Of a stretch of 64,000 bases of DNA, positions 60,434 through 64,000 are shown piece by piece. Numbering within the stretch: the stretch's first letter is position 1; every line of letters begins with the position of its first letter. The position numbers and the translations under genes are program-made. The notes under the pieces were generated by a model. That model was not told the origin of the DNA, ran no database searches, and worked only from the letters and a program-made list of their open reading frames with translations. This DNA comes from Tepiditoga spiralis (lineage in GTDB: Bacteria > Thermotogota > Thermotogae > Petrotogales > Petrotogaceae), in NCBI RefSeq assembly GCF_014701195.1, contig NZ_AP018712.1, positions 62,001-126,000 on the forward strand, given 5' to 3'.

Positions 60434-60916
60434 TTGTCTGGAATGCATATATATTACTTTAATATTTGCAAGAGAAAGCTTTGGCTTTTTTCTCATAATT
60501 TAAATTTTGAAGATGAAAACATTAATGTAAAAATAGGTAAAATAATAGAAGAAGAATCCTATAGCAATCAAAAGAAAAATTATCTTATAGACAATATAAA
60601 CATAGATTATATAAAAAGAAATAAAACAATACATGAAATAAAAAAAAGCAATTCATTTGAAGAAGCTAATATTATGCAAATTAAATATTATTTGTATATA
60701 TTAACAAAATATGGATTAAATGATATAAAAGGTATATTAGAATATCCAAAGTTATATATAAGAAAAGAAATAAATTTAGATAAAAATGATTATATTATAA
60801 TTGAAAAACAAATATATGAAATATATAAAATAATAAATAATAAAAAAATACCTAATGTAATAAAAGATAACAAAATATGTAAAAAATGTGCATATTATGA
60901 ATATTGCTATATATAA
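60434..60916 (+). CDS. cas4: CRISPR-associated exonuclease Cas4
   Basis: 160 residues. The first cysteine of the Fe-S set is in YYFNICKRKLWLFSH; the other three are in KICKKCAYYEYCYI. The nuclease core has IHEIKKSNSFEEANIMQIKYYLYIL (E.K and Q...Y). It trims prespacers and helps PAM selection. The start is a TTG at 60434 or an ATG at 60443; GGTGGTGA is rather far upstream of both. Confidence 0.93.
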   Translation: MSGMHIYYFNICKRKLWLFSHNLNFEDENINVKIGKIIEEESYSNQKKNYLIDNINIDYIKRNKTIHEIKKSNSFEEANIMQIKYYLYILTKYGLNDIKGILEYPKLYIRKEINLDKNDYIIIEKQIYEIYKIINNKKIPNVIKDNKICKKCAYYEYCYI

Positions 60917-60927
60917 GAGGTGATTTT

Positions 60928-61917
60928 ATGAAAAGGTCTTATTATTTATTTTCTAACGGAGAATTAAAACGAAGAGATAATTCATTAATTATAAAAAATA
61001 CTCGAACATCAAAATATATTCCAGTAGAAGATGTAAATCAAATATATGTATTTGGAGAAATATCTTTTAATTCAAAACTTACTAATTTTTTATTTCAAAA
61101 TAACATAACTGTACATTTTTTTAATTACTATGGATATTATTCGGGAAGTTTTTATCCAAGAGAAAATTTATTGTCTGGTGATGTTCACTTAAAGCAAGCT
61201 GTAAATCATTTAAACTTTCACAAAAGATTATTAATTGCAAAAGAATTTATAAATTCAGCAAGTTTTAATATAAGCAGAAATTTAAAATATTATAATAGAA
61301 AAGGTATTACTCTAGAATTTCAAATAAAAGAAATAGATTTTTTAAGAAAGAAAATTAATAATGTAAATTCAATTGAAGAATTGATGGGAATAGAAGGTAA
61401 TATAAGAAAAATATATTATTCTACATGGGATTTTTTTATAAATCAAAATATAAATTTCAAAAAAAGAGAAAAACACCCTCCAAAAAACTGGATAAATTCA
61501 TTAATTTCATTTATAAATTCATTAATATATACTACAACTCTCACCGAAATATATCATACTCATTTAGATCCTACTATAAGTTTTTTACACTCTCCAAGTG
61601 AAAGAAGATATAGCTTAAGTTTAGATATATCAGAAATATTCAAACCTATTGTTGGAGATAGATTGATATTTTCGTTATTAAATAAAAATATGATAACACA
61701 TGAATCTTTTATAGAAGAGTTTAATCATATAATATTAAAAGACTCTGCAAAAAAAATTATATTAAAAGAATTTGATGAAAGATTAAAACAAACAATAAAA
61801 CACAAAAAACTTAATAAAAAAGTATCTTATAGAAGATTATTTAGATTAGAATGTTATAAATTAGAAAAACACGTAACAGAAGATACAAAATATGAAGGAT
61901 TCAAAATATGGTGGTGA
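60928..61917 (+). CDS. cas1: CRISPR integrase Cas1
   Basis: 329 residues. MKRSYYLFSNGELKRRDNSLII, YIPVEDVNQIYVFGEISFNSKLTNFLFQNNITVHFFNYYGYYSGSF, IEGNIRKIYYSTW, HTHLDPTISFLHSPSERRYSLSLDISEIFKP. Conserved metal ligands Glu (EG), His (THLD) and Glu/Asp (DISEIF) are present. The start at 60928 has AGAGGTGAT; the longer overlapping frame has none. Confidence 0.97.
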   Translation: MKRSYYLFSNGELKRRDNSLIIKNTRTSKYIPVEDVNQIYVFGEISFNSKLTNFLFQNNITVHFFNYYGYYSGSFYPRENLLSGDVHLKQAVNHLNFHKRLLIAKEFINSASFNISRNLKYYNRKGITLEFQIKEIDFLRKKINNVNSIEELMGIEGNIRKIYYSTWDFFINQNINFKKREKHPPKNWINSLISFINSLIYTTTLTEIYHTHLDPTISFLHSPSERRYSLSLDISEIFKPIVGDRLIFSLLNKNMITHESFIEEFNHIILKDSAKKIILKEFDERLKQTIKHKKLNKKVSYRRLFRLECYKLEKHVTEDTKYEGFKIWW

Positions 61918-61923
61918 TAAATA

Positions 61924-62211
61924 TTGTATGTAATATTAATTTATGATATAAACATAGAAGAAGATAATAAAAAGGGTCAAAGAATATTAAATAATTCATT
62001 TAAAATATGTAAAAAATATTTAAATCATGTACAAAAATCTGTTTTTGAAGGAGAAATAGACAAAGCTCAACTTGAAAAGCTTCATGCTGAATTAAATAGA
62101 TATATAAGAAAAGATTTAGACTCAGTAATAATATTTAAAAGTAATAATCCTAGATGGCTAATGAAAGATTTTTGGGGAATTAAAGAAGATAAGACATCTA
62201 ATTTCTTTTAA
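61924..62211 (+). CDS. cas2: CRISPR adaptation protein Cas2
   Basis: 95 residues starting with TTG behind GGTGGTGA. MYVILIYDINIEEDNKKGQRILNNSFKICKKYLNHVQKSVFEGEI and the later DSVIIFKSNNPRWL are typical. It forms the Cas1-Cas2 integration complex. Ends the adaptation operon. Confidence 0.96.
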   Translation: MYVILIYDINIEEDNKKGQRILNNSFKICKKYLNHVQKSVFEGEIDKAQLEKLHAELNRYIRKDLDSVIIFKSNNPRWLMKDFWGIKEDKTSNFF

Positions 62212-62308: not shown

Positions 62309-62383
62309 TGGTAGCCCCACGGGGAATCGAACCCCGATTCTCGGACTGAGAATCCGATGGATTAACCGTTATCCTATGGGGCC
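62309..62383 (-). tRNA. tRNA-Glu (anticodon CTC)
   Basis: 75 nt with encoded CCA. Acceptor GGCCCCA/TGGGGCT (one G-U pair), D-stem GGAT/ATCC, anticodon stem TCGGA/TCCGA, loop TTCTCAG giving anticodon CTC, T-stem CGGGG/CCCCG with loop TTCGATT. It separates the cas genes from the asnA region and is on the minus strand. Confidence 0.95.
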
Positions 62384-62457
62384 ATATTTACAACTATTAT
62401 TATAACATATAAAATATTCTTTGTAAAGATATTTTTTTACTACTAAAAAAATATTAC

Positions 62458-62486
62458 TTGACAAAATATTTTTTTTATGCTAAAAT
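62458..62486 (+). promoter_or_regulatory. Promoter of the asnA leader
   Basis: TTGACA (62458-62463) and TAAAAT (62481-62486) with a 17-bp spacer and an upstream TG (ATGC before the -10). Transcription should start near 62493, leaving a leader of about 257 nt before asnA. Confidence 0.8.
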
Positions 62487-62522
62487 TTAGAAAATTAATT
62501 AACGATAACAAGGGTGGTTAAT

Positions 62523-62603
62523 ATGAAATATTTTTCATTAATTGCAAAAATTAAATCAAATGTACAATTTAATAATAATAATAATTTACAGCGTCGGCAA
62601 TGA
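62523..62603 (+). CDS. Asn-rich leader peptide of the asnA attenuator
   Basis: A 26-codon ORF, ATG at 62523-62525, TGA at 62601-62603, with AGGGTGG about 6 nt upstream. Residue 13 and residues 17-21 are asparagine, the latter five consecutive AAT codons; it ends LQRRQ. An aspartate-ammonia ligase gene lies downstream, so the codon run matches the pathway product. The final codons form the 5' arm of an antiterminator. Read with the two competing stems below, this is a leader peptide for ribosome-mediated attenuation. Confidence 0.85.
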   Translation: MKYFSLIAKIKSNVQFNNNNNLQRRQ

Positions 62604-62638
62604 CACGCTGTCTGTTTTGACATATAATTGCCGATGCT
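62588..62638 (+). promoter_or_regulatory. Anti-antiterminator and antiterminator stems of the asnA leader
   Basis: ACAGCGT (62588-62594) can pair with ACGCTGT (62605-62611), 7 bp. Alternatively AGCGTCGGCAAT (62590-62601) pairs with ATTGCCGATGCT (62627-62638), 12 bp with one G-U. The two are mutually exclusive. The second also uses the terminator's 5' arm, so it is the antiterminator. Its own 5' arm ends at the first base of the leader stop codon: a ribosome finishing the ORF blocks it, and one stalled at the Asn run leaves it free. Confidence 0.8.
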
Positions 62639-62657
62639 TAATAAGCATCGGTTTTTT
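62631..62657 (+). terminator. Attenuator terminator of asnA
   Basis: CCGATGCT (62631-62638) and AGCATCGG (62644-62651) form a stem around TTAAT, extendable by inner T-A pairs, followed directly by TTTTTT (62652-62657). It ends 92 nt before the asnA ATG. It competes with the 62590-62638 antiterminator. Confidence 0.88.
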
Positions 62658-62661
62658 ATTT

Positions 62662-62728
62662 ATACCCGGGTATTTGAAGTAATCCCCAAAATTACTTCAA
62701 ATAAATATCAAAGTTGGGGCTTTGATAT
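62662..62728 (+). promoter_or_regulatory. Two hairpins with complementary loops upstream of asnA
   Basis: Hairpin A: ATTTGAAGTAAT (62672-62683) / ATTACTTCAAAT (62691-62702), perfect, loop CCCCAAA. Hairpin B: ATATCAAAG (62705-62713) / CTTTGATAT (62720-62728), perfect, loop TTGGGG. Loop bases CCCCAA (62684-62689) and TTGGGG (62714-62719) are exact complements, so a six-pair kissing interaction is possible. A palindrome ATACCCGGGTAT (62662-62673) abuts hairpin A and could compete. The fold ends 6 nt before the AAGGGAGG ribosome site, so it may act on translation as well. Confidence 0.7.
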
Positions 62729-62749
62729 AAAATTAAGGGAGGAATCAAT

Positions 62750-63688
62750 ATGAAAAAAGTAGATAGTTTAGAATTAGTAAAAAAATATACTGATGGAAAT
62801 TTTTTTAAAGATGTAACTTTTATACAAAGTCAAATTTTGAAAAGTGTAAGGCATGTTTTAGATGAAAAAGGTTTTATTGAAATTTTACCTGTAATTATTT
62901 CACCAATGACTGATCCACTAAACCATCCAGTTTTTAATGCTGATATTAATTATTATGGAAAAACATATTCTATAACTAAATCTATGATTCTTCATAAGCA
63001 AATAAGTACACTTGTTCATGAAAAAATTTATTCTGTTTCTCCAAATTTAAGACTCGAAACTGAAGAAAATTATGACAGTGGAAGACATCTTGTTGAATTT
63101 GTTCAAATCGATATGGAAAAACTTGGAGCAACTCGTGATGAAATAATGGATATTATGGAAGAAGCTATAAAGTATACTGTTAATACATTAAAAGATAGTT
63201 ACCCAGAAATAATTGAAAAATATCATCCATCACTTGATTTTTTGAATAAACCTTTTAAGAAAATAACTGTAAAAGAAGCTAAAAGTACTTATGGAGAAGA
63301 TTATGAAAAAATACTTTCAAAAAAATCAAAAGAACCATTTTGGCTCATTGACATGCCTTTACTTGAAAGAGAATTTTATGATAAACAAGATATGAAAAAT
63401 CCAGATGTTCTTCTTGATTTTGATTTAATCTTTCCTGAAGGTTTTGGAGAAGGTATTTCCGGTGGTGAAAGAGAACATGAATATGATCAAATAATAAAAA
63501 GAATGGATTTAAAGAGAACTTCATCAAAAATGTTTGAAGAATATTTAAGTTTAGCAAAAGAAGGTATATTAAAACCAACCGCTGGTTGTGGTATAGGTGT
63601 TGAAAGATTTACAAGATATATACTTGGTTTAGATCATGTTGAAAACGCAAGACTTTTTGCAAAAGCTCCAGGAAGATATTCTATTTAA
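62750..63688 (+). CDS. asnA: Aspartate-ammonia ligase (asparagine synthetase A)
   Basis: Makes asparagine from aspartate, ammonia and ATP (AMP-forming). 312 residues, class II aminoacyl-tRNA synthetase-like fold: LPVIISPMTDPLNHPVFNADINYYGKTYSITKSMILHKQ, VSPNLRLETEENYDSGRHLVEFVQIDME, GFGEGISGGEREHEYDQI and PTAGCGIGVERFTRYILGL. The last motif is the class II motif 3. It is shorter than E. coli AsnA (330) but complete. Controlled by the attenuating leader. GGGAGG precedes the ATG. glnA starts 87 nt after it. Confidence 0.96.
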   Translation: MKKVDSLELVKKYTDGNFFKDVTFIQSQILKSVRHVLDEKGFIEILPVIISPMTDPLNHPVFNADINYYGKTYSITKSMILHKQISTLVHEKIYSVSPNLRLETEENYDSGRHLVEFVQIDMEKLGATRDEIMDIMEEAIKYTVNTLKDSYPEIIEKYHPSLDFLNKPFKKITVKEAKSTYGEDYEKILSKKSKEPFWLIDMPLLEREFYDKQDMKNPDVLLDFDLIFPEGFGEGISGGEREHEYDQIIKRMDLKRTSSKMFEEYLSLAKEGILKPTAGCGIGVERFTRYILGLDHVENARLFAKAPGRYSI

Positions 63689-63775: not shown

Positions 63776-64000
63776 ATGACCAGAGAGGAAATTTTAAAAA
63801 AAATAGTCGAAGAAAAAATAAAATTTATAAGGCTTCAAATTACCGATATAAACGGTATGTTAAAAAATGTGGAGATTCCAGCAGATGAAATAGAAAGAGC
63901 CTTAGATGGGAAGGTTATGTTTGATGGTTCTTCCATTGAGGGAATGGCAAGAATAGATGAATCAGATATGTATCTCATTCCTGACCTTTCTACATTCACA
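63776..64000 (+). CDS. glnA: Glutamine synthetase, N-terminal part (runs off the right edge)
   Basis: The ATG at 63776-63778 has AAGGAGGGTG upstream; 75 codons are visible. [29 protein letters not shown] and [28 protein letters not shown] are the GS-I N-terminal beta-grasp domain; DGSSIEG and SDM are signature residues. It makes glutamine from glutamate and ammonia. No terminator lies between asnA and glnA, so co-transcription is possible. Confidence 0.95.

Follow-up and report, generated by a model that had tools for sequence, protein, structure and literature searches.

A predicted ribosome-mediated attenuator with asparagine codons upstream of asnA in Tepiditoga spiralis, and related leaders in its phylum and beyond

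The window analysed here, a 64,000-nucleotide stretch of the Tepiditoga spiralis genome, carries towards its right end an asparagine synthetase gene, asnA, followed by the start of a glutamine synthetase gene, glnA. The DNA upstream of asnA holds a promoter, a small open reading frame rich in Asn codons and a series of overlapping complementary arms that end in an intrinsic terminator. The features, all on the plus strand, are as follows.

62458-62486, plus: promoter, TTGACA (62458-62463), a 17-nt spacer and TAAAAT (62481-62486), with 11 of 12 consensus matches and a TG before the -10 element
62510-62518, plus: Shine-Dalgarno site of the leader ORF, AAGGGTGGT, as read in the sequence
62523-62603, plus: leader peptide ORF of 26 codons, MKYFSLIAKIKSNVQFNNNNNLQRRQ (then stop), kept as an Asn-rich ORF in all 47 assessable relatives
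62571-62585, plus: five regulatory Asn codons (AAT, in addition to one AAT at 62559), mixed AAT/AAC in orthologues
62588-62611, plus: competing hairpin ACAGCGT/ACGCTGT, 7 perfect pairs, 62588-62594 with 62605-62611
62590-62601, plus: antiterminator 5' arm (arm 2), with its last base, 62601, also the first of the TGA stop
62627-62638, plus: antiterminator 3' arm (arm 3), complementary to 62590-62601 and overlapping the terminator 5' arm
62631-62657, plus: intrinsic terminator CCGATGCTT-aat-AAGCATCGG with six T, stem 62631-62639/62643-62651, TTTTTT at 62652-62657
62750-63688, plus: asnA, asparagine synthetase paralogous to AsnRS (archaeal type), 312 aa (NF005054, 3p8t)
63776-64000, plus: start of glnA, type I glutamine synthetase, 440 aa, continuing past the window

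A preliminary description of this DNA had named the promoter, the 26-codon ORF with its five AAT codons, the 12-bp antiterminator, the terminator sharing an arm with it and the 7-bp stem, and had placed the end of the antiterminator 5' arm on the ORF stop; all of these were recovered at the positions listed above. The antiterminator (62590-62601 with 62627-62638) comprises 12 pairs, one of which is G-U. On neither strand does the asnA upstream region contain a second terminator-like site (shuffles give an expectation of 0.1), and the segment 62500-62670 folds better than its shuffled versions (z -2.3).

The same neighbourhood shows several further features. A promoter-like ATGACA-17-TATAAT lies within the leader, at 62600-62628, and transcription starting there could truncate the terminator and so bypass the attenuator. 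Between the terminator and the ribosome-binding site of asnA, at 62671-62728, stand two strong adjoining hairpins with complementary loops (CCCCAA at 62684-62689 with TTGGGG at 62714-62719), possibly a kissing-loop pair; this loop pattern occurs once in the genome and is not evident upstream of asnA in relatives. On the 5' side, cas4-like, cas1b and cas2 genes (60434-62211) end shortly before the asnA promoter, with a tRNA-Glu gene (62309-62383, minus strand) in between.

The asnA product scored 410 bits against NF005054 (curated cut-off 309), and its closest solved structures are 3p8t (E 2.6e-50) and 1nnh, both described as 'archaeal asparagine synthetase A'. Judged by these matches, the enzyme is an archaeal-type AsnA, an AsnRS paralogue (PRK06462), and not of the E. 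coli type (PF03590); a scan of the genome collection for AsnA matched distant synthetases only. A true AsnRS (NF003037, 554 bits) is present in the genome as well, so that charging of tRNA-Asn should depend on free asparagine. The start of glnA lies 87 nt beyond the end of asnA, and the two genes are neighbours in G046 too. It is probable that glnA is co-transcribed with asnA, and the attenuator may control both.

A search of the phylum set (103 genomes) found AsnA in 49 genomes (50 genes, as G024 has two). Upstream DNA could be read in 47 of these 49, G009 and G054 being excluded by contig ends. In all 47, which belong to five families, a GC-rich terminator hairpin comes after a leader ORF that contains Asn codons. 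In most of them the ORF is preceded by a purine-rich Shine-Dalgarno site at an equal spacing. The Asn runs of the orthologous leaders mostly count 3-9 residues; leaders of genus g12 often have only two consecutive Asn (DNN), and that of G017 alternates Asp and Asn (DNDN). The leader of G035 (MKISKLLKINNNNNNNTQRRQLTL, then stop), detected by a covariance model, lies 664 nt 5' of asnA; several hundred bases of repeat-like DNA separate attenuator and gene in this genome. Small ORFs with at least four consecutive Asn codons occur within 300 nt upstream in 33 of 48 regions, versus 0.11% of dinucleotide shuffles. Across the orthologues the Asn codons are AAT 166 times and AAC 50 times, a mixture which indicates that the amino acid, and not a triplet repeat, is what is kept.

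We examined the pairings in two alignments, A1 (the family of the window, 18 sequences) and A2 (the other families, 29 sequences). Within A1, 91.7% of the antiterminator cells are paired, a value that 0 of 500 shuffles reach, versus 86.5% after shuffling and at most 52% in slid versions, and four pairs have changed on both sides; the terminator of the same alignment is 97.5% paired, with three doubly changed pairs. The A2 terminator is 99.6% paired with six doubly changed pairs, and the A2 antiterminator 88.8% paired versus 86.8% after shuffling (3 of 500 shuffles reach the observed value). Antiterminator covariation is marginal across families f2, f4, f7 and f11, because arm 2 there relies on G-U pairs. 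Complementarity is nonetheless kept while the arm sequences vary from group to group (GCGTCGG/CCGACGC, CCAGCGTTGGTG/CACCGGCGCTGG, ATCGGTC/GGCCGAT and ACCGGCCTGTCTTT/AAAGACAGGCCGGT), and for 46 out of 47 leaders an arm search recovered an antiterminator that uses the 5' arm of the terminator. The competing hairpin is the least certain part of the device. Hairpins of this type occur in many of the leaders and exceed shuffles in 24 of 47, but show no covariation in a fixed alignment because their register shifts between families: they lie downstream of arm 2 in f1, whereas in f2 and f7 they are placed upstream of arm 2 or overlap with it.

In those families of the phylum that have no asnA, covariance models built from the two alignments (R1 from A1, R2 from A2) turned up no convincing Asn leader. 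Above an E-value of about 1e-3, several of their matches in the phylum were asnA leaders again or other leader attenuators, and many were ordinary terminators 3' of coding genes; in that range the model score alone never sufficed for a match to be counted as an Asn leader.

The arms are also placed where a translating ribosome could act upon them. In 46 leaders, the distance from the final Asn codon to the start of arm 2 has a median of 8 nt, and that from the end of arm 2 to the end of the stop codon a median of 9.5 nt; arm 2 overlaps the stop codon or lies close to it. We modelled the ribosome as a mask of assumed size (A-site -18 to +11) on a folded RNA that ended with arm 3. With the A-site at any of codons 13-19, the antiterminator has a probability of 0.98-0.99; the value falls to 0.83 at codon 20 and 0.58 at codon 21, and is 0.00 at codon 22 and all later ones as far as the stop. 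In this model, the antiterminator forms while the ribosome has gone no further than the third of the five AAT codons and is lost once the ribosome is beyond the run. Folding at 55 C left these values nearly unchanged. Pairing of arm 3 is greater when the ribosome is stalled than when it is at the stop in 36 of 47 leaders, the contrast being weak and not above shuffles in several leaders of f2, f4, f7 and f11. When the full-length leader is folded, nearly all states favour the terminator thermodynamically (0.4-0.9). As it wins at equilibrium once arm 4 is available, antitermination must be kinetic, like in the classical attenuators. The preliminary description had named a lack of conservation of the Asn run or of the alternative stems in relatives as a result that would refute it, and had proposed a stall/stop logic: the run is conserved, the antiterminator and terminator arms covary, so that the refutation failed, and both the arm geometry and the ribosome-masked folding fit the logic.

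We interpret the locus as a classical ribosome-mediated transcription attenuator of the trp/his type, with charged tRNA-Asn as its signal and asnA, probably together with glnA, as its target; we assign this interpretation a probability of about 0.93. We infer the following course from the order of the elements. The RNA would start near 62490, and a ribosome would translate the leader ORF behind the RNA polymerase. Were Asn-tRNA(Asn) scarce, the ribosome would stall on the five AAT codons and leave arm 2 free to pair with arm 3 before arm 4 exists, which would block the terminator and allow asnA to be transcribed. Were it plentiful, the ribosome would reach the TGA at 62601 and cover arm 2, arm 3 would pair with arm 4, and transcription would end in vivo at the T-run near 62657. 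With no ribosome on the leader, the local hairpin at 62588-62611 might re-sequester arm 2. At the arm-3 stage without a ribosome, the antiterminator has a probability of 0.98 and the masking model by itself predicts no termination, so that superattenuation by the local hairpin is a role that we infer.

The device is not restricted to asnA. Asn leaders stand directly before glnA alone in three genomes, where they end in RMNNNNNNNPIGTGRLG (G010), NFANNNNNPIDTGRLG (G008) and ANAANNNWPGSACSMP (G100), each followed by a stop, and where the identity of GlnA was confirmed. In five genomes of genus g7 (G047-G051), an Asn run, ISSNNNNNKQRRLKTL and a stop, forms the end of a 506-aa GltD within gltB-gltD-amtB-PII. 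The GltD family model TIGR01317 ends at residue 493, and a 13-residue Asn-rich tail, NNNNNKQRRLKTL, lies outside the conserved part; directly after the tail come the arms and the terminator, before amtB. The ribosome finishing GltD would thus decide whether amtB is transcribed, and a leader peptide added to the end of a functional enzyme would offer a route for internal attenuators to evolve within operons. A second Asn leader occurs in G019, ahead of an uncharacterised gene (MRSVLIDGQIAYNAVSQ..., no Pfam match) which follows asnA in G020-G022; this leader is possibly a relic of a lost asnA.

Leaders of other composition were also encountered in the phylum. His-codon leaders with terminators precede hisZ-like genes in G005 (KWHHHHSN) and G053 (NMNMHHTRR), and Met-codon leaders with terminators (VHMMMMW or VHMMMW) precede metQ in G039, G040 and G041, as candidate Met attenuators of the methionine transporter. 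A conserved aromatic leader, FVMNMYWYIFGR, with a terminator lies before the binding protein of a branched-chain-type amino acid ABC transporter in G020 and G021. In G054, a related attenuator whose leader (MVLSLIRPGFAEGLNFNICVMVIINSAGSRCVF, then stop) has no amino-acid run is found before an ABC transporter ATPase.

Other explanations of the asnA leader have to be weighed against this material. The run of AAT might be a triplet microsatellite of an AT-rich genome, the short ORF fortuitous and the hairpin an ordinary terminator; the intergenic DNA is indeed AT-rich, and the number of AAT repeats varies among species. We hold this to be highly improbable, since AAC is interspersed (50 of 217 codons), the run is always in frame with a start and a stop, also in the GC-richer families, a run of at least four Asn is expected by chance in only 0.11% of cases per upstream region, covarying arms follow the stop, and the same run recurs as the GltD tail before amtB. 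Just as little can be said for a T-box binding tRNA, or a riboswitch binding a ligand or protein, as the controller of the terminator with the ORF incidental. A terminator/antiterminator pair does exist, and the asn genes of Firmicutes are regulated by T-boxes, but upstream of the arms there is only the leader ORF, with strong coding conservation and no conserved structured domain. A scan with Rfam 15 matched no family, T-box (RF00230) included, at gathering threshold in the window, gave unrelated sub-threshold matches only at E<=10 in 62380-62760, and found neither a T-box nor any other known leader in ten related loci.

The leader is translated just 5' of asnA, and it might have been thought to act through translational coupling or re-initiation, and not through transcription termination. 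However, 146 nt and the strong T6 terminator separate the leader stop from the asnA start, the spacing grows to several hundred nucleotides in G035, and the terminator is kept in all 47 leaders, which makes such a mode of action very hard to credit. It also seems unlikely that the leader works as a general sensor of translation or growth, responding to any stall, to antibiotics or to the stringent state, without specificity for Asn-tRNA. Any stall on the run would free arm 2, and the device is also found before glnA and amtB, which are not Asn-biosynthetic, but Asn is common to all these leaders, and in the same phylum it is His that precedes hisZ and Met that precedes metQ. This match between residue and gene argues for an amino-acid-specific reading.

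We sought the canonical asnA (PF03590) in 198, then 292, genomes of the phylum of Candidatus Kapaibacterium, which we take to be Bacteroidota in GTDB, and found Asn-rich leaders upstream of it in 13 genomes, all of one order (L141, L143, L155, L156 and L158-L166). One of them reads MRFFSNNLPNNNSNNNPIRDWKAIAP, then TGGAAGGCT, then the terminator AGCCTTCC...GGAAGGCT-T7, that is, the shared-arm design. The same kind of control would thus act on asnA of a second synthetase family, and in a second phylum. The three PF03590 asnA genes of a Gammaproteobacteria sample have no upstream run of at least three Asn codons. Within the phylum of the window, glnA is found alone behind an Asn leader (G008, G010, G100) and after asnA (the genome of the window, G046). 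The presence of one Asn reader before asnA, glnA and amtB-PII, and again in a second phylum, suggests that tRNA-Asn charging serves as a signal of nitrogen sufficiency. On balance we lean towards the joint reading that it signals nitrogen status, with a family of Asn-codon attenuators controlling asnA, glnA and, in one genus, amtB, and that the Bacteroidota leaders arose separately.

Leader-peptide attenuation is a known mechanism, and the features of it that can be looked for in DNA are present here, the competing hairpin less certainly than the others. The trp, his, phe, leu, ilv and thr attenuators of E. coli and Salmonella likewise have a leader ORF rich in codons for the product, an antiterminator 5' arm over the leader stop, a terminator sharing the 3' arm and a gene of the same amino acid downstream; they also have a competing hairpin, the less certain feature here. 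The present system is unlike these in its predicted Asn specificity, its phylum and its predicted control of asnA (glnA and amtB in relatives), and in that the competing hairpin in the family of the window pairs arm 2 with a downstream partner, not in the upstream '1:2' form that is seen in f2 and f7. The Asn T-box of Firmicutes has the same signal, uncharged tRNA-Asn, and the same output, antitermination of Asn supply genes, but its RNA binds the tRNA directly, whereas here a translated ORF would read the tRNA level. Leader-peptide attenuation outside the Proteobacteria has reportedly been described in Actinobacteria as well, in a comparative study, with a specificity and phylum different from those considered here.

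Two further published cases can be compared. The His leader of bacillus hisS/hisZ was also recognised by comparative analysis outside the Proteobacteria, with another specificity and in another phylum; its authors knew of leader peptides shown before that only in Proteobacteria and Actinobacteria, and neither asparagine nor Thermotog- occurs in their text (Naville and Gautheret 2010, PMC2965389). The uORFC-8-2 motif of cysS in Rhodobacterales (PMC8632094) similarly combines a conserved uORF with tandem cognate codons and was read as ribosome-mediated attenuation, but it concerns Cys, an aminoacyl-tRNA synthetase and alpha-proteobacteria, and Asn or asparagine is not in that paper. In the limited open-access literature and Rfam 15 we found neither an Asn leader attenuator nor leader attenuation in this phylum. 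The system described here would thus place leader-peptide attenuation in a phylum for which that literature describes none, and would add asparagine to the amino acids that are read in this way.
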